Below, in pieces: positions 22,601 to 55,581 of a stretch of DNA of 64,000 nt (position 1 is its first letter; each line of letters begins with the position of its first letter). The translations under genes and the position numbers were made by a program. The stretch is from Malachius bipustulatus (taxonomy: Eukaryota > Arthropoda > Insecta > Coleoptera > Melyridae). The stretch lies in assembly GCA_910589415.1 (NCBI GenBank), contig OU342631.1, forward strand, positions 2,108,001-2,172,000, in the 5' to 3' direction. The notes under the pieces were generated by a model. It was not told the DNA's origin. It did no database searches and saw only the letters and a list, made by a program, of their open reading frames with translations.

Positions 22601-25600
22601 ATCCTTTGAATGCAATATCATTGTTGTATAACAGTTTGAAGAGACCTTTCAAATGGGGGTGTCACAAGTCACTACTTCTCATTTGAAAATTTAGGGGTAT
22701 CAACTCGAAGGGATGAACTCAACTCAACTTGAGATGAAATTTGTACGCTACAGGATGTCAGTTTATAATCTAAAATCGATGTGTTTCGGGATTTTTTGTA
22801 AATACGCACAATAATAATTATTATTACTGAAATAACGAATTTGTTACATCTATACACTTTGTGTATAGGGTGTTTCACGACGACCGTCAGTTAGCCATAT
22901 CTCGCAAGATAGGTACGTGGGCGATTTTTTTCAAAATTTGTATTTGACGGTTTCAGCCATTTTTGAGTGTACGTAAAATATTTTGAAAACTTGGTCACTT
23001 CCGGTTTTACTGGATATCGCCATCAGCTTTGTTATTTCAAATGAGATGCTCCAATATGAAATAATTTTGAATTTGGCGTTAAATTTTAGATGAACTTTTA
23101 TCAGCATGTTCTATACCTAACTTTGATAGTTTTCGAGAAAACCATGATTTGCAATTTTTTCTAAAAAATCATTGCCAACTTAAGTCAATCTCTGAATTGT
23201 CGAAATTGTCAGTTGCGGCCTCGCGTTTTCTATGGCTACATTACAAAGGTGCCTAAAATCTATCTAACTTCTGTTATCTGACCTATGTTATACAGGGTCT
23301 TCTCTAAGCCGTCTCCAATTTTCACAACTTTGAACTAAAAAAAATAAAAAATTTTAAATGGCAACCGCCAAAAATTTTACATCTGGTAAAACTAGAATTT
23401 AATTATGAAAGTTATTGCGTTTATTTGTCTAATCTACATAATTTCTTAACTTTGTTGTTTCTGTCTAGTTGCTTTTATAAAAATGGCAAGATTAGGGTAC
23501 AGTAATGAAGATTTTTTAAATATGTTACTGATTCATGGAGAGTACGACAGAATAGCCGCAAGAATTTAACATGTAGAAAATTCGAATATAAATACCCCGC
23601 GAAACCTCCGCCTACAGCAGAGCACACTATTTCACGATTATTAGAAAACTGTCGCAAAGGTTCATTTAAATCCATTGCAACTAGAAGAAAATCGATAGTT
23701 GATAACGAAGAAATTGAAATTAACATCTTAGAATACTTTGTAGCTTATCCTACAAATTCTATAGGGACGCCTTCCGAGATTTAGAATGTATCCGTTGCCT
23801 CTGTCCATCGATTATTGAGAAAACATAAGCGGCATCCTTTTTCTTACAACAAATTACAATCTTTAAAGCCTGGAGATGCACAAAGGCGAATAGAACTTTG
23901 TAAATGGTAATTTTAAGATTTAAAGAAAATAACGATTTTTTAAATCAAAGTTCATCTAAAATTTAACGCCAAATCCAAAAATTAATTCATATTGGAGCAT
24001 CTCATTATTTGAAATAACAAAGCTGATGGCGATTTCCGGTAAAACCGGAAGACTCAAAAATGGCTGAAACCGTCAAATACAAATTTTGAAAAAAATCGCC
24101 CCAGTATCTTACGAGATATGGCTAACTGACGAATTGTATATAAAATTGTATAGCAGCTGTTCCACAATTGATAATAATGACTAAATGTGTCTTATTATGT
24201 ATCTATAAACGCGGTTTCCTATTTATAAAGTGAATGTTTTCGAAATACTAAAAATGAAGGCACATAACTTTTAAGCAGGTTCCATATAAATAATGAAACT
24301 TTTATTACAAATTAATCAATATTCGTCCGTTCGACATCCGTTCGTCGTCCTTGTGCGTCCAAAAAATTTAGCGCATCTGATCTCGTGTCGGGTATCACCC
24401 GAAAGATGTTCAAAAACGAAAAATGCAGGCTCCCAAAGTCTTGAAATTATATTAAAAAACTTGAAAAAAAAAAGTTGCAGTACATCATAAACTCTTCCAA
24501 GGAAAATAATTTTGAACAAGATAACAATTTTTTGATAACAGTTATGTATTAAGGAATCAATTTTTTAATCACCGCATTGTATGGGGTATCATCGAACAGG
24601 TCTTTAAAAATGCAATAAAAGTTTTTTAAGTGATTTTTTCCTTAGGTGATAATTTCGGGAAATATAAGGTGTTCGCAGACCAACTGCGTGAGCAGGAGCG
24701 CAGCGTTTCGAACGCGGAACGTAATTGTGCAGCGGGAAAGCGCAGGCACAACGACTCACGCGTTTTTATTTTAACATTTCCTGTTCCACAATTAAGTCCC
24801 TCAATCCCGCGCGTTGGTCTACGAACACCTATAATATCCTAAAGTTGTCAATAATTCCTCCCTCTCTAACTTTACAATGTGATTAAAAAATATGAAAAAA
24901 ACTTTTAGTGGAGGTATCATGCATACATCAAAAAACCAAAACATCAGTTCTGGGAGGAGTGCCGCATTCTCCCCAAAAACCCCCTCTTGTATGGAAAAAA
25001 CCTTATTTAAGTGAAACGTAACTCGTAAACAGGTTAAAGATGTCAAAAAATTGCCGATTAGAAAAAAAGCATGACGAATTTCCTGAAAACCCATCCTCTT
25101 GTAATTTCGTTGTATGTGCCATTTGTTGTATTGGAAAAAATTGCAAAAATTCCAATTTTATGCGCGCGAATTTTTGTTTTTGAATTTTTTGTGCGGTCCG
25201 CCGACAAAAAGGAATTTCTCGAAACCCATACAGACTAGGAAGAAAAATCGAAACAGGTTTTGAATATGATGTAAAATAGTAAAGTAGTATGATGTAAAAT
25301 TAATCTTTTTAGTACATATTTAATAAAAAATAGGAGATCGAGGGTTCTAAGCTCATGTTCATTACTGATCTAATGCCAAAGACAGGAGAAAAACACTGCT
25401 GAAGAAATGGATGGCCATTTCGTTCTTATTGGAGCTCATCAGCATGCACTGTACATATAAGCAAAAACGATTCGTCGTCTTTAGTTTGCTATGGGAAAAA
25501 ATATTTGCATTTGCAAACCCATTTTCAAATTAATTTGCTGCTAGAGCTCCAATAAGAACGAAATGGTCATCCATGTCTTCAGCAGTGTTTTCCTCCTGTC

Positions 25601-27174
25601 TTTGGCATTAGATCAATAATGAACATGAGCCTAGAAACCACGATTTCCTATTTGTTATTCATTTTTGCTCGAGAATTCCACTCCTAATAAAAAATTAATA
25701 TGCAGTTGTCACTTGATTTTTTGCCATTTCACCATTTGCATGTCCATAAAAATACCAGACTTTCATATTTTTATAAAGTTATAAGTGTTATCTTTTAGTA
25801 GGAGGTAGTAATTTTATGCAGAGAAGTGGGACATAAGAATGTTTACAACTACAAAATTTCCAGATTGTTGAAATTAGACATTTTTTTTCATGTTTTCCGA
25901 AATGTAAAATATGTAACACAAAAATTTTGAAAACTAGCCAAAATATTTTTTTTTAATAAGATATACAGTGTGACCCATTTGTTCTTGAAACACCCTGTAA
26001 ATCATAGAGCTTGCTAAACTATATTTTGGGAGCAAAAAGCGTCTCATTCCTACAAAATCCAAGGCCTACCTACTAGATCATTGTTTACTTGTAAAATCTC
26101 AGCAATTCATCTTAGCGATTTTTTAGAAAAAAACTGGGCACGCCACAGGATTCACCACCCCTTAAAACGGTACCTACTCTATAAAATTTTATTGGAAATG
26201 TCAGAGTAATAAGAATCTTGCAGTTATTTTAGAAATTCATAATAATACTCCGAATTTTACTCGAATAAATTTATTCGAAAAGGTCAAAGTTATCCATGAA
26301 AAAAACTTAAACTACTTATCTGACTGTTAAAAGTGGCAAATAATTTTGTAGGATAATTCCAACGTGTCTAGTGTTAAGCATGGGTAACATAACTTTGAGA
26401 GACAAAATATAAATGGTACGTTTAGTTGGTAATGTAATTTAATTTTTTATTATTATTTTTTTTTTTTTTACTTATGATAGCTTTTGACCTTTTCGAATGA
26501 ATTTATGAAAATTCTGAGTATTATTATGAATTTCTAAAATAACTGCAAGATCCTTATTACTCTGACATTTCCAATAAAATTTTATACAGTACCGTTTTAA
26601 GGGCTAGTGAATCCTGTGGCGTGCCCAGTTTTTTCTAAAAAAATCGCTAATATGAATTTTTGAGATTTTAAAAGTAAACACTGATCTAGTAGGCCTTGGA
26701 TTTTGTAGGAATGAGACGCTTTTTGCTCCCAAAATATAGTTTTGCAAGCTCTATGATTTAAAAGATATACTTTTAAAATCGCACCATAAATTAAGATTCT
26801 ACAGGGTGTTTCAAGAGCAAATGGGTCACACTGTAGGTATTCTATCATTCTATTGTTTCTAATCATTCAATAGTTGAAAAATTCAGTAGTTTTAAACTTT
26901 AGTCTATTACAGTACTTGCTAAGCAACCTTAAGTTGATGAGTGTTAATTTGTTCCATAGGTACACTAATTTGCATAATCTGAAATAATGCTTCCTCCTGA
27001 ATAATTAAGTTATATTCTTTCTTGGTTCATGATAATGAGAGTACCTAATTTAATTGTTTAACTGATGAATCGTTTCTTGTTTCAGGAAAAGTAAAAGTCA
27101 ACAATGCTCAAATTGCAACACAGAATATCCCAGCAACTAATGGAGTCATACATGCAATAGACGTTCTCTTATAG
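7617..27174 (+). CDS. Fasciclin (FAS1) domain protein, 3' end of gene, three exons
   Basis: This is the C-terminal part of a secreted or cell-surface adhesion protein of the midline-fasciclin / TGFBI (beta ig-h3) / periostin type. The exons are 7617-7818, 8906-9121 and 27086-27174; all have AG acceptors, GT donors follow the first two, and the frame joins cleanly (168 codons plus stop TAG). The first exon ends one FAS1 domain (GTAHAIDRVMFPLP, the conserved H-box region). It then starts a second, complete FAS1 domain: TFTLFAPTDRAF (F-box), LRHMVQGTLY, then VNNAQI and NGVIHAIDVLL at the very C-terminus. Earlier domains and the signal peptide must lie left of the window. The final intron is about 18 kb and full of TEs. 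An ortholog of Drosophila mfas is likely, but the symbol is not certain without the N-terminus. Confidence 0.88.
9122..10774. other. First part of the 18 kb fasciclin intron, nothing recognised
   Basis: This is intronic sequence without a supported gene. Short ORFs at 9225-9407 and 10043-10249 on the minus strand are unsupported. GC-richer spots near 9720-9910 and 10180-10260 may be old TE pieces, but no family signature is visible. Confidence 0.4.
10775..10925 (+). mobile_element. Possible Helitron 3' terminus
   Basis: The sequence ends in CTAG (10922-10925) followed by T, as expected of Helitron CTRR ends, which insert before a T. Eleven bases span the gap from a small hairpin (GGCAA at 10897-10901 pairing with TTGCC at 10910-10914) to that end. 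The preceding 150 bp contains one copy of the ACTTCCGG/CCGGAA near-palindrome (10775-10796). The 5' end of the element was not located, and no Rep/helicase coding sequence is present, so at most this is a non-autonomous copy. Confidence 0.45.
10985..11954. mobile_element. Fold-back DNA element with TA-CAGGGTG ends (970 bp)
   Basis: The left end reads CAGGGTGTCCGGTAAGTACC and the right end is its reverse complement, each flanked by TA. The arms continue inward for hundreds of bases: the terminal 80 bp are almost perfect, then come matching segments around TTTTGACAGGTGTCA and the facing copy near 11650. The whole element is nearly one palindrome. It has no ORF. TA flanks and terminal inverted repeats suggest a non-autonomous Tc1/mariner/IS630-type element. 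Confidence 0.85.
11955..14599. other. Fasciclin intron, no recognised feature
   Basis: AT-rich intronic DNA. The ORF at 13654-13974 (106 codons, starting with ATG) has the low-complexity K/N composition of chance ORFs in AT-rich sequence and no recognisable domain. The minus-strand ORF at 13058-13246 is likewise unsupported. Confidence 0.4.
14600..15335 (+). mobile_element. Probable 5' region and ORF1 start of a non-LTR retrotransposon
   Basis: A GC-rich block stands out from its AT-rich surroundings. From about 15040 one + strand frame reads KDAMDIDSNPTP..., then PLDQEEKKTSPEEKEDE, a stop, then PDYKPSGDFLTPEDLDTLAT. This is an acidic, low-complexity N-terminus typical of gag-like ORF1 proteins of LINEs. 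The upstream part (14610-14930) contains the CTTAACCTAACCTC type of string common in LINE 5' UTRs. No zinc knuckle or reverse transcriptase is present, so this is a truncated copy. The family is uncertain. Confidence 0.5.
15678..15753. mobile_element. 76-bp near-perfect palindromic MITE with a TTAA-like flank
   Basis: The left half, from AAGGCCGGCTCTCACTTGT, and the right half, ending ACAAGTGAGAACCGGCCTT, form a 34-bp stem with one or two mismatches around a loop of about 7 nt (GTGCCAT). The right flank is TTAA and the left is CTAA, compatible with a TTAA target site (piggyBac-like). The element is nothing but its two inverted repeats. Confidence 0.75.
15797..19206. mobile_element. Giant fold-back element (3.4 kb), arms of about 1.16 kb
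   Basis: The left arm 15797-16956 and right arm 18047-19206 are near-identical inverted copies. Both contain the same small ORFs (for example 15791-15976 on minus and 19027-19251 on plus). The arms begin TGTGGGCCTTTCAAG, and the homology stops sharply at AATCACAACGTATA on the inner side. The spacer 16957-18046 is unique and, with the right arm, carries a decayed minus-strand coding region. It lies in the fasciclin intron, so a pre-mRNA copy could fold into long double-stranded RNA. Confidence 0.9.
17678..18180 (-). pseudogene. Decayed TE-associated protein remnant
   Basis: On the minus strand, from the inner part of the right arm into the spacer, broken frames read HIFDGMSVAQKLRKP, then EHLAIIPKYSQ, then an intact stretch (17678-17878) ending LISNQEKADTRILLHILSAK. 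The FDGM...EEADTRxLLHA arrangement recurs in uncharacterised, TE-associated proteins of insects and cnidarians. That is recognition from memory, not a search. Several frameshifts and stops are present. The sense of FDGM is also found, inverted, in the left arm at about 16836-16880, so part of the gene is duplicated head-to-head. Confidence 0.5.
19552..20074. mobile_element. Fold-back MITE family A, copy 1 (523 bp, TA flanks)
   Basis: Ends are CAGGGTGTTAAGAAAATGAC and its inverse, flanked by TA on both sides. The arms (about 80 bp) also include the GTGTCCCCTACAATGTACT segment. A second copy of the same family lies at 33229-33745 in inverted orientation: the asymmetric middle part (the GCAACGTTTAACACGATAACT segment) is reversed between them. 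No ORF. Confidence 0.85.
20075..22865. other. Fasciclin intron, with a possible TE-coding remnant at about 20700-21600
   Basis: At 20757-21035 a + strand frame reads LEPGNRVLRKPGQTSTAHDT... and on to a stop. Its composition looks protein-like (not K/N-rich), and GC content is raised until about 21620, so a broken coding remnant, probably from a TE, is likely. I do not recognise the family. The rest is AT-rich sequence with no gene. Confidence 0.3.
22866..24138. mobile_element. Fold-back element carrying a transposase remnant (about 1.27 kb)
   Basis: The arms at about 22880-23115 and 23940-24130 are inverted copies: GTCAGTTAGCCATATCTCG on the left faces CGAGATATGGCTAACTGAC on the right, and later AAAGCTGATGGCGAT faces ATCGCCATCAGCTTT. 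The left terminus TATAGGGTGTTTCAC resembles the CAGGGTG family; the matching right terminus is lost. Each arm carries one ACTTCCGG/CCGGAA near-palindrome (22996-23014 and 24033-24051). The middle encodes the transposase fragment listed separately. Confidence 0.8.
23483..23908 (+). pseudogene. N-terminal transposase remnant (DUF4817-like helix-turn-helix, IS630/mariner-like)
   Basis: The reading begins with ATG at 23483: GYSNEDFLNMLLIHGE, then RIAARI and a stop. In the next frame follow PPTAEHTISRLLENCRKG, SIVDNEEIEINILEYFV, VSVASVHRLLRKHKRHPF and LQSLKPGDAQRRIELCKW. This order (a short N-terminal helix-turn-helix with DMLL-like helix, then the VS..SVHRLL recognition helix, then the RR..CKW linker) is that of insect IS630/mariner-like transposases with the DUF4817 domain. 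It stops at CKW just before the DDE catalytic domain. Frameshifts and an internal stop make it non-functional. Confidence 0.7.
24139..25330. other. Fasciclin intron around a small MITE, otherwise no recognised feature
   Basis: Apart from the small element at 24665-24832, this is AT-rich intronic sequence. ORFs at 24293-24519 on both strands and 24819-25094 on the minus strand show no family features. Confidence 0.4.
24665..24832. mobile_element. Small MITE (about 170 bp)
   Basis: Terminal inverted repeats are AGGTGTTCGCAGACCAAC on the left and GTTGGTCTACGAACACCT on the right (one mismatch), with further pairing inside (GGAACGTAATTGTGCAG facing CTGTTCCACAATTAAG, partial). It is GC-rich compared with its flanks. 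No ORF. Flanking ATA on both sides may be a target duplication. Confidence 0.65.
25331..25650. mobile_element. Fold-back MITE (about 320 bp)
   Basis: Arms of about 105-120 bp run inward from TAGGAGATCGAGGGTTCTA on the left and the inverse TAGAAACCACGATTTCCTA on the right. They include GCCAAAGACAGGAG facing CTCCTGTCTTTGGC and ATTTCGTTCTTATTGGAGCT facing AGCTCCAATAAGAACGAAAT. No ORF. Confidence 0.8.
25966..26833. mobile_element. Fold-back DNA element with TA-CAGTGTGACCC ends (868 bp)
   Basis: Ends are CAGTGTGACCCATTTG and its inverse CAAATGGGTCACACTG, both flanked by TA. Long arms follow: CATAGAGCTTGC faces GCAAGCTCTATG, and CGTACCATTTA-side sequence near 26410 surrounds the centre. A CAGGGTGTTTCAAGA string sits subterminally in each arm (inverted at about 25985-26000). 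The ORF on the minus strand at 26597-26866 is a by-product of the arm, not a gene. Confidence 0.85.
26834..27085. other. End of fasciclin intron
   Basis: This is plain intronic sequence leading to the last acceptor (polypyrimidine TTTCTTGTTTCAG ending at 27085). Confidence 0.5.
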
Positions 27175-36584: not shown

Positions 36585-37108
36585 CAGGTGTCTCAGGATG
36601 AGCGTGCGTTAGTCGTATATGAGAAACTGGGCATGACAGAAATTTGAAAATTTGTATAGCAGGGGTTTTACAAAAAAAATGAATCGATGGAAAATATTTT
36701 CAAAATGGCAGCACTTCCGGTTATACCGGAAATTGACTTGACGTGTCTTATTTTAAATGGGACACCAGTATATTATTGCATTTTCGAATTGCCTGAAAAA
36801 AATCAATAAAAATGGCGTTTATACAGTTCAAAATTGTACCGAGTGGTTTATAAGTTTTGTACAATTTTGAACTGTAAACGCCATTTTTATTGCATTTTTT
36901 CAGGCAATTCGAAAATGCAATAATATACAGTGTGTCCCATTTAAAATAAGACACGTCAAGTAAACTTCCGGTATAACCGGAAGTGCCGCCATTTTGAAAA
37001 TATTTCCATCGATTCATTTTTTTGTAAAACCCCTACAAATTTTCAAATTTCTGTCATGCCCAGTTTCCCATATACGGCTAACGCACGCTCATCGTGAGAC
37101 ACCCCCTG
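36585..37108. mobile_element. Fold-back MITE (524 bp) in the divergent intergenic region
   Basis: Ends are CAGGTGTCTCAGGATGAGCG on the left and the inverse CGCTCATCGTGAGACACC...CTG on the right. The arms continue almost to the centre (about 235 bp each), including AAAATGGCAGCACTTCCGG facing CCGGAAGTGCCGCCATTTT and GGCGTTTATACAGTTCAAAA facing TTTTGAACTGTAAACGCC. Each arm carries the ACTTCCGG/CCGGAA palindrome (36713-36733, 36963-36984). The ORFs here are by-products of the arms. Confidence 0.9.
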
Positions 37109-38006
37109 TTATTATGTGGTGGATTGTTGTAAATATTACGGTTTTATTACTGTGTTTAAGTGTTATTACATGGATGTCCCATTTAAAAAGAAATGAGATC
37201 ACGGAAACGATAAGAGATACATAATCAGATAAATTAGAGAAATGTTGCACAATTTCATGCAAAATGCTTATTAAGAATCTGAAACAATAACATTTTGAAA
37301 TATCCTGAAAAAATTAAAAACCAAGATTTTTTTATTTTATGAAAAAAATTACATTGTTTTTTATGTCATTTGGTATTAAAGAATCAAGAAAACCAAAAAT
37401 ATATATATAAAAAATAAAAAAAAAATAAAAATTGTATTCTTTTATGAAAAAAAACCTTTCTTTAACCGAAAGTGTCATCATAATCATAAATAATCATAAG
37501 GAAAGCAATGTGACTTCATATATTTCGCCATCATACGATGTCATTCGATGGAAAAACTTTAATTTCTTTCGAAAAAAAAGAAGAAAATTTTAAAGAAATG
37601 TTTTTCGTTAATATGATAACCTTTTGGTTTTCGTTATTTTTTTAATACCGAATGACATCAAAAAGCAAATGTGGCGGCCATAAGAAAAACAAAAGTCTAT
37701 TATGAAAACTCTGAGATTTAGTGGTCTGTGAAAATTTTTGAAACGTCAAATTAATAGCTGCTGACGACTTATGCAAGCCTACAAAAATTGTGTATTTATT
37801 TGTTTTTTATAATAAATCTTATAAATCTTATTACAATTATAATTCTTATAAAATAAAAATCTTATTAAATCTTATAATAAATCATCTCATTTGTAGTCTT
37901 CCAATCTTTTTGTTTATAATGGTGAGTTTATTTTATTTTATCCTGTAAGTGGTATTTACTATTTTTCTGTTGGGTAAATAAATGAATAATAAATACATAA
38001 TAATAA

Positions 38007-47601: not shown

Positions 47602-50339
47602 CTCAATAATGTTGCTTGAGTTCTATGTTCATCTCTTTAAGATATAGATTTTCTTGACAATAATAATTAATTGCACATTTTACACATTCTTCACCAATAT
47701 CAGTCCCATCTTCAACATGACAATTGCATTTATTTTCAGACCTTCTTCTTCTTATGCTGCTATACATTAATGGATGTTTGCGATCATTTTTGACCATTTT
47801 TCCTTGTCTCTGGTGGTGTGAATTAACTCTTCTGCGGTTCTTATCCCTGTCCAATGTTTGATATTTCGGAGCCATGACATCTTCTTCCTTCCTATTCCCC
47901 TTCTTCCCTCTTATTTTTCCTTCTATTAATAGCTGGATCAGATGATATCTCTCGTTTCGTATCAGATGTCCGAGGTATGCTGTTTTCCTGCGTTTTATCC
48001 TGCCCAGCAATTCACGCTCCCTTTCCATCATCCTCAGAACTTCCTCGTTGGTTTTCCTTGCTGTCCATGGGACCTTTAAGATTCTTCGGTAGATCCACAT
48101 TTCAAATGCTTCCAACCTGTTCTTGGTATCAACTTTCAGTTTCCATCCTTCCATGCCATACAGTAGCACGGACCATACATAACATTTTGTGAATCTTATT
48201 CTGAGGTTGAGGTCAAAGTCAGAGTTCGTAAGGACGCTTTTAAATCTCATGAATGAGCTCCTCGCTTTTCCTATCCGGCACTTGATTTCTGCGTCTGAAG
48301 ACCATTCCTCACACAACCAAGCCCCCAGATAGTTGAACTTTTTTACCCATTCTATGTCCTCATTATTGCATGATAGTTTTGCATTATTGAACTCATCTAA
48401 TTTTCGGGTGATTATTAGGAATTTTGTCTTTTTTGTGTTGATGTTAATTCCCATAAGCCGGCTATGTATTCCAACTATGTCCAGGAGCTTTTGGAGGTCA
48501 TTCATGTTATCGGCCATCAGGACTGTGTCATCTGCGTACCATACCTACATTGTTGATCCATGTGCCATTCACTCTGATGCCCAATTGTTGCCCTTCGAGA
48601 GCTTCCTGGAAGATGTTTTCAGAGTAAACGTTAAACAGGAGTGGGGAGAGGACACATCTCTGCCTTACACCTCTAAGGATTTTCTGTGCCTTTCTAACTT
48701 CGTTGTCCACTCGAACTGCAGCTGATTGGTTCCAGTACAAGTTTTCAATACAACGTATATCCTGCTGATCTATGTCAAGTCGCCTCAATATTTGAATGAG
48801 TTTATGATGTTGCACTCTGTCAAAAGCCTTTTCGTAGTCAATGAAACACATCACTATATCTTTTCTCTGGTCGTAGCAGTTCTGAACTAACACCTGGGTT
48901 GCGACCAGTGCCTCTTTCGTACCTAGACCTCTTTTAAATCCGAATTGAGAGGATCCCATAGCACTTTCGCATATTGTAGAAATTCTGTAGTGAATGACCT
49001 TCAGAAATATTTTCAGAGTGTGACTCATCAAACTAATTAATCTATGGTCTTCACATCTTGTTGCGTTGTTCTTTTTTGGGAGTGGGATGAAAAGAGACAT
49101 AAGCCATTTGGTTGGGAATTTTCCTGTTTCATAAATTTGGTTGAAAAGCCTTTGAAGTACCTTAATACCATCGTTGTCTAATAGTTTGAGCAGTTCGACA
49201 GGCATTAGATCTGGTCCAACCGCTTTCTTATCTTTTGAATTATTTATTGCTCTGGTAATTTCTTCTATTGTAATTGATGGTCCAGACAGATCACCTTCCA
49301 GGTTATCGTCCAAGTGGGGTCTCTCATCCACAAAGAGGTCGCCAATATATCGCTCCCATATAGTTTTTCTCTGTGCGTTGTCTTGTGCTATTTCCCTTGT
49401 TCATTTTGTATGTTAGAGAAAGTCTTCCTTCTATATACTCCCAATGTTTCTTATCCGATATTTTCTTGTGTAGGTTAAACTCATCGTGCTGCTCCTGTAA
49501 GCGTTCCATTTCTTCGCACTGTTCCTTCAGCCATTTATTCTTTGCCGCTCTTATTTCTCTTCGTATAGTACGCTGCAACACCACATATTTGTCTCGACTG
49601 CCTTGGTTCTTGTGTTTGCTTCTCTCCTCAAACATTGCCAGTATTTCGTCTGTCATCCAATCTTTCGTCCTTTTTATCCCTTGTTTGTATTCTGTTTCCT
49701 TTCTTGCAGTGCCCATCATTATCTCCTCCATGTCTTTCCATGCGTCATCAAGATTCATTTCCTGAGCCGGTTGTGATATGGCTAACGGTGCTAAGGCTTT
49801 ATTTATTCTCTTGCTTACCTCACTTTTGACGCCCTCGTCTCTAAGTCTATCATAATCTATCATTGGTTCTTTTTTTTTTGTTTTCTGATATTAGTGATCT
49901 TTATCTTTATTTCTGTTGTGAGAAGGACATGATTCGATGGGACGTCGGCTCCAGGGTATGTACATGTTCTTGTTACTGATGTTCCAAAACGTTTGTTGAC
50001 CAATATGTAGTCTATTTGGTTTCTAATTATATGTTCGGGACAGTCTGCTGGGGCTCTCCATGTGTAGAGACGCCTGGGTGGCAGTCTAAACCAAGTGTTA
50101 GTTATTTTCATCTGCTCTTCTTGACAAAATTGGTGCATCCGCCAGCCTCTTTCGTTCCTCTCTCCCAATCCATAAGGGTCTATTAGTTCATCTGGTATGC
50201 TTTTTCCAATCTTGGAGTTGAAGTCGCCTAGTATGAGGTTCATTTCAGATTTTTTAACATTGTTATGAATTAGTTGTTTCAGACCTTCAGACACGTTTAT
50301 TTCCAGACCAAATATAACCTCAAAATAATTAAAAATCAA
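47602..50339 (-). mobile_element. RTE-type non-LTR retrotransposon, 5' truncated, endonuclease plus reverse transcriptase
   Basis: The minus-strand order is as follows. An endonuclease C-terminal half (50339-49860) has LILGDFNSKIG, NQIDYILVNKRF and the SNHVLL ending equivalent to the SDH motif. A linker (49863-49324) follows. Reverse transcriptase (49331-48528) has NSKDKKAVGPDLMPVELLK, FGFKRGLGTKEALVA, FIDYEKAFDRV (motif A) and GVRQRCVLSPLLFNVY, where the usual GVRQGC Gly is Arg. YADDTVLMADN (motif C, codons at 48538-48527) is reached by a frameshift near 48545. The C-terminal part (48517-47603) has RRILKVPWTARKTNEEVLR and YLGHLIRNERY, then shifts frame near GKKGNRKE. The N-terminal half of the endonuclease is missing. 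The copy is dead but fairly young. Confidence 0.88.
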
Positions 50340-54171: not shown

Positions 54172-54333
54172 CCTATATGTTGATCAATTTTTATGTAAAA
54201 AATTAACAACAACACACAAACGTTATTTCATTTAATTTACTAAGCATTTTTTTAATGTGGTCTTTATATTATGTACCTATTTGTAATACCATTGTGATAT
54301 TATTGTACAGCGAGGATGTTAATAGCCAGTGAA

Positions 54334-54598
54334 GTCTGGCATTGTTGGCGCCTGAAACTGCAATATACTTAGAGTGAACTCACGGTTAGTTCTTTAGGCT
54401 GACCGCTACATGTCGCTCTATTATACACCACAGGGAGATCCGTTTAATTATTGGCTTAAGATAGGCCAACTACCATTCATCCAGCAACATCCTCCCGGAT
54501 ACTCCAGATGCAGCACACTGATGAGCTCCAGTGGAGCGAAACACGTGTCTGTGCTTGTTCTGGTACTCTGGCTGGCTCTGCTGTTGGATGTGGAAACT
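54334..54598 (+). repeat. Direct repeat unit 1 carrying a hammerhead ribozyme
   Basis: This begins GTCTGGCATTGTTGGCGCCT and runs through the ribozyme to about GCTGTTGGATGTGG. A copy with roughly nine-tenths identity by eye lies at 54801-55070 in the same orientation. The 200 bp between the copies (54599-54800) has no coding sequence. Tandem non-coding units with hammerheads match retrozymes or the tandem LTRs of Penelope-like elements. No Penelope reverse transcriptase or GIY-YIG endonuclease is present in the window. Confidence 0.8.
54504..54563 (+). ncRNA. Type I hammerhead self-cleaving ribozyme, apparently intact
   Basis: Core CTGATGA is at 54518-54524. Stem II is GCTCC/GGAGC (54525-54529 with 54533-54537) and closes on a 3-nt loop. 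GAAA follows at 54538-54541. Stem III is a short A-U, C-G pair closing on ACGT, then GTC ends at 54549, where cleavage is expected. Stem I is AGCACA (54512-54517) with TGTGCT (54550-54555), an internal loop TGC/TGT, then CCAGA (54504-54508) with TCTGG (54559-54563). All core bases are present. The short stem III and internal loop in stem I are the known features of metazoan retroelement hammerheads, which usually act as dimers because of the weak stem III. Confidence 0.88.
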
Positions 54599-54800
54599 CT
54601 CTACGTTGGAGTTTCGGGTCGGGCACTGCCATCATGACAACTGCTAGGGCGATGGAGGAATTTTCCGACCCCATCTAACAGGCTAGTAATTGCACTTTAT
54701 GTGCTTTATACTTATACTCATTCGACCTACCTTCATTATTCTATATATTAATTAATCGTTGAGTATACTTGCCTTATTTCTCTTATTCATGATTGTCAAT

Positions 54801-55070
54801 GTCTGGCATTGTTGGCTCCTGAAACTGAAACTGAAATATACTTAGAGTGAACTCGTGGTTAGTTCTTTAAGCTGACCGCTAGATGTCGCTCTATTTTACA
54901 CCACAGGGAGATCCGTGTTAATTATTGGCTTAAGATAGGCCAACTTCCATTCATCCAGCAGCATCCTTCCGGATGTCCAGATGCAGCACAGTGATGAGCT
55001 CCAGTGGAGCGAAACACGTGTCTGTGCTTGTTCTGGTACTCTGGCTGGCTCTGCTGTGGATGTGGTTGGA
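54801..55070 (+). repeat. Direct repeat unit 2 carrying a mutated hammerhead
   Basis: It matches 54334-54598 from GTCTGGCATTGTTGGC onward, with small differences, among them a duplicated GAAACT near 54820 and loss of two bases near 54976. After about 55070 the sequences diverge. Confidence 0.8.
54977..55036 (+). ncRNA. Hammerhead ribozyme copy 2, core C3 changed to G
   Basis: It has the same layout as the first copy. Stem I is AGCACA/TGTGCT plus CCAGA/TCTGG, stem II is GCTCC/GGAGC, then GAAA, with the cleavage-site C at 55022. The core reads GTGATGA instead of CTGATGA: base 54991 is G. C3 pairs with G8 in the active fold, so this copy is expected to be inactive. Confidence 0.8.
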
Positions 55071-55444
55071 TGTAAATTACGTAATCAGTTATGTCCAGCA
55101 CATTCTAATGTACCTATATCTCCATTTTATTTATTTAATTATTTTCACGCTATTCCAGGAGCTTTGAGAGTATAGACATAAGTCTAATATTTAGTAAAGT
55201 TAGATAAAAAATTCTAAGTTATGTTGGTATTTTGGTATGTATTTTTAAGTTGCCTTCCCTCCCGGTCAACCTTCCCATTGATCTCCTCGAATGAGGAATA
55301 TCAATAATTAACATGAAAATTAGAAAGTAATCAGATTATATAAAAAAAGGTGTACGTATAATATAATTAACATCAGTCACTTTCATTTGGCACAAAAGTT
55401 ATATTAGAAATTAGGAAAGTATCTGAAACAATAATTAATTAATA

Positions 55445-55581
55445 GCCCAGCCACACACCAAAGAAATATAAAACAGGAAACATTTTGCCATATGTAGGAC
55501 TGAGAGCTCGCTAGCTAGTTCTCGCTCCTACACATTACAAAATGTTTCTTATTTCATATTTCTTTGCTGTGTGGCTGTGCT
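55445..55581. mobile_element. Palindromic MITE (about 137 bp)
   Basis: GCCCAGCCACACACCAAAGA...GGAAACATTTTG faces CAAAATGTTTC...TCTTTGCTGTGTGGCTGTGC. The stem is about 45-50 bp. TAA/TTA flanks are compatible with a TA or TTAA target. No ORF. Confidence 0.7.

Follow-up and report, generated by a model that had tools for sequence, protein, structure and literature searches.

A hammerhead retrozyme family in the beetle Malachius bipustulatus whose insertions were probably made by a Penelope-like element

Previous studies indicate that insects are among the hosts of metazoan retrozymes (Cervera and de la Pena 2020, PMC7229834), and a 2020 review, in the part available, names Penelope elements as 'likely candidates' for moving the retrozymes of animals (PMC7761336). 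In Adineta, the accessible text of PMC3846280 describes Penelope inserts with adjacent inverted pLTRs, mostly head-to-head; their target-site duplications (TSDs), when they occur, are 8-10 bp long, and one of the inverted ends may carry a 31-bp tail. According to the available portions of PMC11167929, the purified Penelope protein of Anolis cleaves both strands and extends them from two internal sites that lie next to each other, and the Penelope tail is the sequence between these two start sites. Here, we describe a hammerhead-bearing repeat in a 64,000-nucleotide stretch of contig OU342631.1 of Malachius bipustulatus, which is called the window below. The locus is, with high probability, a degenerate non-autonomous retrozyme, belonging to a family whose insertions were made in trans by a Penelope-like RT/GIY-YIG protein, probably that of an 823-aa family. 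The initial annotation had offered a retrozyme or a Penelope relic and called the choice undecidable; the retrozyme reading stands, and the undecidability holds for the window alone, being resolved by the other copies in the genome.

Repeat search and pairwise alignment showed that the two direct repeats of the initial annotation are real; they span 54334-54593 and 54801-55065 and are 92% identical over 267 columns. The period of 473 nt equals the distance between the two hammerheads, and the locus holds ~1.56 units (Table 1), with a unit GC of 0.44. The units had been described as non-coding, which agrees with our results: no long frame lies between the repeats, and the longest sense frame of the unit covers 79 codons from stop to stop. 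No homologue of this frame was found, and a coding role was rejected on that ground. An ATG within the hammerhead core opens a 38-codon frame at 54521-54634, inside the 79-codon frame, reminiscent of the Anolis Penelope ORF, which begins at stem II in the partial account available. Unit 2 contains a word at 54876-54890 that we take to be CTCF-like and that is altered in unit 1. A 69-nt inverted repeat with directly abutting arms, 83% complementary, lies at 55444-55581 of the window. A plasmid BLAST search gave no match.

Table 1. Coordinates of the features of the retrozyme locus, numbered from the first letter of the window.
Feature	Position	Strand	Evidence and remarks
Retrozyme unit 1	54334..54800	+	467 nt; repeat search and alignment; unit recurs in 39 other genomic loci
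Subdivision of unit 1	shared part 54334-54593; unit-only part 54594-54800	+	
Retrozyme unit 2, partial	54801..55065	+	265 nt; ends at unit position 260, ahead of the sites where 3' ends normally lie
Type I hammerhead copy 1, intact core	54504..54563	+	Pattern search, descriptor, constrained fold; compensatory changes in the alignment of the 58 distinct copies
Hammerhead copy 2, predicted inactive	54977..55036	+	Core GTGATGA; C at that position in 57/58 distinct copies
Long imperfect hairpin with hammerhead at its tip (extended stem I)	54473..54593	+	-48.1 kcal/mol, z -3.2
3' stem-loop TATACTCA/TGAGTATA	54713..54767	+	Folds; shared with Penelope-823 as TATACCCA/TGGGTATA
Putative reverse-transcription start sites	X ~54749-54760; Y ~54787-54794	+	Transferred from mapping in other loci

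In copy 1, the core CTGATGA (54518-54524) is followed by stem II (GCTCC/GGAGC, 54525-54537), GAAA (54538-54541), a stem III of 2 bp with an ACGT loop, and a GTC that ends at 54549, after which cleavage would be expected from the layout. Stem I consists of CCAGA/TCTGG and GCACA/TGTGC, interrupted by an internal loop. The claim that each repeat holds a full type I hammerhead is correct for this copy but not for copy 2, whose core at 54991 reads GTGATGA instead of CTGATGA, with C3 replaced by G and G8 kept. PMC11167929 reports that C3G leaves the hammerhead without activity except in combination with G8C. Since G8 is unchanged in copy 2, cleavage at 55022 is not expected, and therefore neither is the release of a 473-nt monomer from the window locus; the release by cuts at 54549 and 55022 that had been proposed is thus unsupported.

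A search of the window with the core pattern, allowing up to three mismatches, returned the sites of copies 1 and 2 only, and none in 100 shuffles, while a looser descriptor found copy 1 alone, with 8 matches in 200 shuffles (~0.04 per window). A chance motif was rejected in view of the 0/100 shuffles for the core pattern and of the genome counts (731 for the core pattern against 0 for a reversed control). The Rfam covariance search that had been proposed as a check gave no match at the gathering score in the whole window; Hammerhead_HH9 scored below the threshold of 52 bits at both hammerhead sites (21.8 bits with E 0.03 and 18.3 bits with E 0.4). A third candidate hammerhead at 25442 on the minus strand was rejected. 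In this stretch (25360-25640, minus strand; Rfam HH9 22.1 bits), the core CTGATGAGCTCC...CGAAA sits in a foldback repeat and is probably a coincidence, because its stem II does not pair.

The MFE values of the short hammerhead motifs were no better than those of shuffles (z -0.24 and -1.17), and their MFE structure was not the hammerhead. The longer hairpins were more stable than shuffles (z -3.2 and -3.5), with the hammerhead-constrained fold lying above the MFE by 2.9 kcal/mol for copy 1 and 5.3 kcal/mol for copy 2, and the copy 1 hairpin has its base where the duplicated part ends. The 473-nt unit as a whole was also more stable than shuffles, with z -8.1 as a linear and z -6.0 as a circular molecule; 2 of 40 random stretches of the window had a lower circular z, and the paired-base fraction of the circle, 0.61, equalled that of shuffles. 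One of the random control stretches, 36647-37119, gave a circular z of -27, far under nearly all others, presumably reflecting a strong inverted repeat.

The search for other genomic copies that the initial annotation had called for was productive. In the 544-Mb assembly, CTGANGAGNYCCAGTAGRNCGAAACACGTGTC, the exact core pattern, was found 731 times and the reversed control pattern 0 times; the window copies are outside the 731, having GTGG where the pattern has GTAG. With the repeat as the query, the best 40 scored of 1241 candidates yielded 74 matches, in which the other copies are 78-96% identical. We mapped 40 loci, including that of the window; they were taken from one assembly as those most similar to the window copy and do not form a random sample. 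The unit size in the family is 451-473 nt, about 461 nt, and the spacing of same-strand neighbours is 460-463 in 27 of 28 cases among the 100 listed of the 731 cores. A scan of viral contigs for the core gave 0 matches, and no array of telomere repeats was detected at six contig ends.

A coverage filter left 82 hammerhead copies, and an alignment was made of the 58 that are distinct. Intact cores are present in 45 of them, and G at C3 is found in copy 2 of the window only. Stem II occurs as GCTC/GAGC, GTTC/GAAC, GTCC/GGAC, and GCCC/GGGC, and the 5' side of the internal loop of stem I is invariant in all 58 rows. Across the alignment, 97.3% of the cells are paired, compared with 20-48% when the partner is slid, and both partners are altered in 36 cells, where shuffles give 13.3; these cells belong to three pairs, two in stem II and one in stem I. 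Two of the five measures were not above shuffles, which do not preserve relatedness: the count of pairs altered in both partners (3 vs 2.6) and that of further pair types (14 vs 15.1). Paired bases changing without compensation had been named beforehand as evidence against the ribozymes, and what the alignment contains is compensatory change in stems II and I.

The mapped loci share a characteristic architecture. Two arms were found in 26 of the 40 loci, and all 26 are head-to-head (minus then plus) with their 3' ends outward. The 100 listed of the 731 cores fall into 60 clusters, comprising 24 plus, 24 minus, 12 minus-plus, and 0 plus-minus clusters, so that the mixed-strand clusters are head-to-head in 12/12 cases and none is tail-to-tail; 47 of the 60 contain one exact core. 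Adjacent units within an arm are a median of 98.2% identical (28 arms), ranging from 81.5% up to 100% over >500 nt. At the outer borders, a TSD score of at least 9 was obtained for 17/40 loci against 21/400 mismatched flanks, and a score of at least 11 for 11/40 against 0/400. The TSD length is about 10-15 bp; a score of at least 9 is absent in 23/40 loci, and some of the duplications that reach it are simple AT sequence (L020, L047). Two loci were edited by hand: a 49-bp minus piece was moved into the plus arm in L011, and a separate plus piece was dropped in L024.

We found that the outer array ends lie at two fixed sites, X and Y, about 40 nt apart. Site X is located within the loop of the 3' stem-loop, for example after ...GACCTACAATTCACTATTTTTA, and site Y lies past the stem, ~27-37 nt past the start of TGAGTATACTTGCC. 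Among the 20 two-arm loci with both ends classified, 17 have one X and one Y (binomial P 0.0013), one is YY, and two are XX, including L034, which is XX by script but XY-like by its end in the unit mapping. In six more two-arm loci, one end or both fall outside X and Y. The two-arm loci with a duplication are XY in 13/13 cases. The one-arm loci (14/40) end at X in six cases, at Y in two, and at neither in six.

Ordinary satellite DNA that carries the hammerhead passively and is amplified by recombination or through extrachromosomal DNA circles would likewise give tandem units with near-identical neighbours. The pDo500 repeat of Dolichopoda cave crickets, which is also an insect hammerhead repeat with compensatory changes in stem II, is described as satellite DNA in the available text of PMC2837043; its size is suggested by its name only. 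Satellite amplification fits poorly with dispersed short arrays (47/60 clusters with one exact core among the 100 listed of 731), TSDs, fixed 3' end sites, and an exclusively head-to-head order, and we regard it as extremely improbable.

The partner arms of a locus are a median of 97.6% identical (26 loci), and in 13/26 an arm has its nearest relative in its partner. In L018 and L021, the two arms differ by 0 of 535 and 0 of 708 positions, respectively. When substitutions alone were counted in 10 re-examined loci, the partner was clearly closest in four (L018, L021, L034, and L043), and in the remaining ones other arms were equally close or closer. At the arm junction, the gap or overlap is between -4 and 11 bp in 16/26 arm pairs, and the inner 5' ends of the arms differ by at least 30 nt in 24/26 loci, the difference being 20 in L021 and 0 in L015. 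Head-to-head arrays can also be explained by snap-back self-priming, which was proposed for the Penelope elements of Adineta (PMC3846280, in the part available), instead of priming on both target strands. That partner arms may share a template, to judge by L018 and L021, and that the partner is closest in 13 loci speak for it, whereas a simple snap-back predicts matching inner 5' ends and equal outer ends. It fits less well because the inner ends differ and the outer ends are unlike, one X and one Y, and we consider it unlikely.

Compared with the metazoan non-LTR retrozymes of PMC7229834, as far as they are described in its accessible text, the family is the same in being non-coding, in its type I hammerhead, direct tandems of a few units, GC of 44%, and stable unit fold, and in the presence of Penelope elements in the genome. 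The unit of 451-473 nt is outside the published size of retrozyme RNAs, 170-400 nt, which is a reported range and not a strict definition, and slightly beyond that of the published repeats, 150-450 bp, as given in the sources available in part. The available portion of PMC7229834 mentions neither double arrays in head-to-head order, nor two fixed 3' ends, nor a stem-loop in common with a particular Penelope family. The plant-type LTR retrozymes are marked by a type III hammerhead, a 4-bp TSD, and LTRs with PBS and PPT, and the family also differs from them, having a type I topology and TSDs of ~10-15 bp. In contrast, head-to-head order, partial tandems, TSDs of ~10 bp, and a tail between the start sites are common to the family and the Penelope-like elements, according to the accessible parts of PMC3846280 and PMC11167929. 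The retrozyme differs from these elements in its lack of an RT/GIY-YIG ORF (longest frame 79 codons) and its larger hammerhead, and the only region in common is the 3' stem-loop, with one Penelope family.

A GIY-YIG search of the genome gave 150 matches scored of 775 candidates, of which 48, by our own count, fall within open frames 823-921 codons long, and many of them belong to tandem arrays; the Penelope families were grouped in this analysis and named by open-frame length. Six sampled families have hammerhead-like cores between their ORFs, which are different from and smaller than that of the retrozyme. In the 823 family (823 aa), the frame contains RVT_1 and GIY-YIG. Ten array ends of this family were fetched, four of which lie at reference 1097-1104 (X) and five at 1135-1141 (Y), while one shows no end; the head-to-head pairs have one X and one Y in 3/3 cases. 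A genome search with the 823 3' region returned 41 matches with query starts at 1 (11), 7-20 (25), and 43-53 (5), those at 7-20 being of the Y class and those at 43-53 of the X class. The 841 family provided one head-to-head pair with ends ~42 nt apart, and neighbours that belong to the same family but lie on opposite strands are, by eye, arranged minus then plus. In the contig G000 C11 (84 kb), 833-codon Penelope copies follow each other every ~3.33 kb, on the minus strand up to ~20 kb and on the plus strand from ~26 kb. Within the window, a broken retroelement at 47603-50339 (minus strand) has RVT_1 and a weak Exo_endo_phos match, and is therefore LINE-like, not Penelope.

The region common to the retrozyme and Penelope-823 includes TTATACYCATTGACCTACAAT and an inverted repeat, in which one pair is changed on both sides between the two (Table 1). 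The 3' regions of four retrozyme sequences score 50-63 against Penelope-823, and for all four, 0 of 1000 shuffles scored as high, one of them barely beating its best shuffle (50 vs 49). For the five other Penelope families, at least 56 of 1000 shuffles did as well; these controls were 120-nt segments taken by position, with ends unmapped except roughly for the 841 family. The similarity is short, about 85-95 columns, and the Penelope-823 segment was picked after a BLAST match with E 0.001. The shared region folds as a hairpin in three of the four retrozymes and in Penelope-823; since the exact sequence of the 3' half of the stem served to select the copies, only the 5' half (50/55) is informative.

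These comparisons bear on the possibility that the repeats are a relic of Penelope pseudo-LTRs, that is, the terminal repeats of a Penelope element minus its ORF. Penelope elements are abundant in the genome, carry hammerhead-like cores, and have the same insertion architecture, as such a relic would require. However, the units succeed each other at ~461 nt in 40 loci, which leaves no space for an ORF between them, the intact core recurs 731 times, and the six sampled families have other cores, with a resemblance to one of them of ~90 nt at the 3' end. A pseudo-LTR relic is accordingly very unlikely. The retrozyme is a separate non-coding family, since no long frame lies between the repeats and the sampled Penelope families have other cores, and it may derive long ago from a Penelope pLTR.

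As judged from their sequences, the insertions of the family bear the Penelope integration signature, the 'tail' included. The insertion would start with the transcription of a retrozyme array, and active hammerheads would cut the transcript to unit-length RNA, which would be ligated into circles as in the published retrozymes. A Penelope protein, the presumed enzyme, would then bind the 3' stem-loop and cut both target strands, and cDNA would be primed from both cut ends, at X on one and at Y, ~40 nt downstream, on the other; in this step the two sites and the one-of-each pattern are observed, and we infer the priming on both strands. Each cDNA may round the template once or several times, giving near-identical direct units, and the template was probably a circle produced by the hammerhead and copied repeatedly. 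In the last step, the two cDNAs, unequal and truncated at their 5' ends, would be joined head to head, in many loci with a TSD of ~10-15 bp. In the accessible part of PMC11167929, purified PAc shows no strand difference in the start site, so the one-X-one-Y rule exceeds the in vitro result; PAc insertion also did not need hammerhead cleavage.

The head-to-head order, TSD, and tail at one end that make up the Penelope insertion signature are found in the family and not in the window copy. The latter is a single direct array, with 92% identity between its units and no second arm. Its 3' border lies at unit position 260, which is neither X nor Y, and the transferred X and Y positions are inside the tandem, not at its end. 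No convincing TSD was found for the window copy; ATGTACCTAT at 54271/55108 was rejected as its duplication, an exact match of that length occurring in 663 of 20000 random placements. The window copy is a decayed, older retrozyme insert, and the mechanism is shown by its relatives rather than by the copy itself.

SINEs are non-coding parasites that share the 3' recognition end of an autonomous partner LINE. We lean slightly towards a similar parasite-helper pair here, formed by the retrozyme and the 823-aa Penelope instead, which would be linked through the shared stem-loop, with each start site used once, one per strand. Penelope had previously been only suspected as the mover of retrozymes, and the insertion scars of the other copies now point to it; in a search of open-access titles and abstract openings, none showed a Penelope-retrozyme link. 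In this genome we have a candidate for the partner family, a cis element common to both, and a footprint from which the reaction order can be predicted, and the helper question can therefore be tested in vitro with a Penelope assay of a kind that already exists. The tail and the head-to-head structure of Penelope elements may likewise be accounted for by the one-X-one-Y pattern. If the proposed pair is real and uses each start site once per insertion, Penelope would integrate by a two-strand reaction with a fixed order, carried out by a paired enzyme on a single (circular) RNA, and the 'tail' would be no more than the interval between the two start sites.
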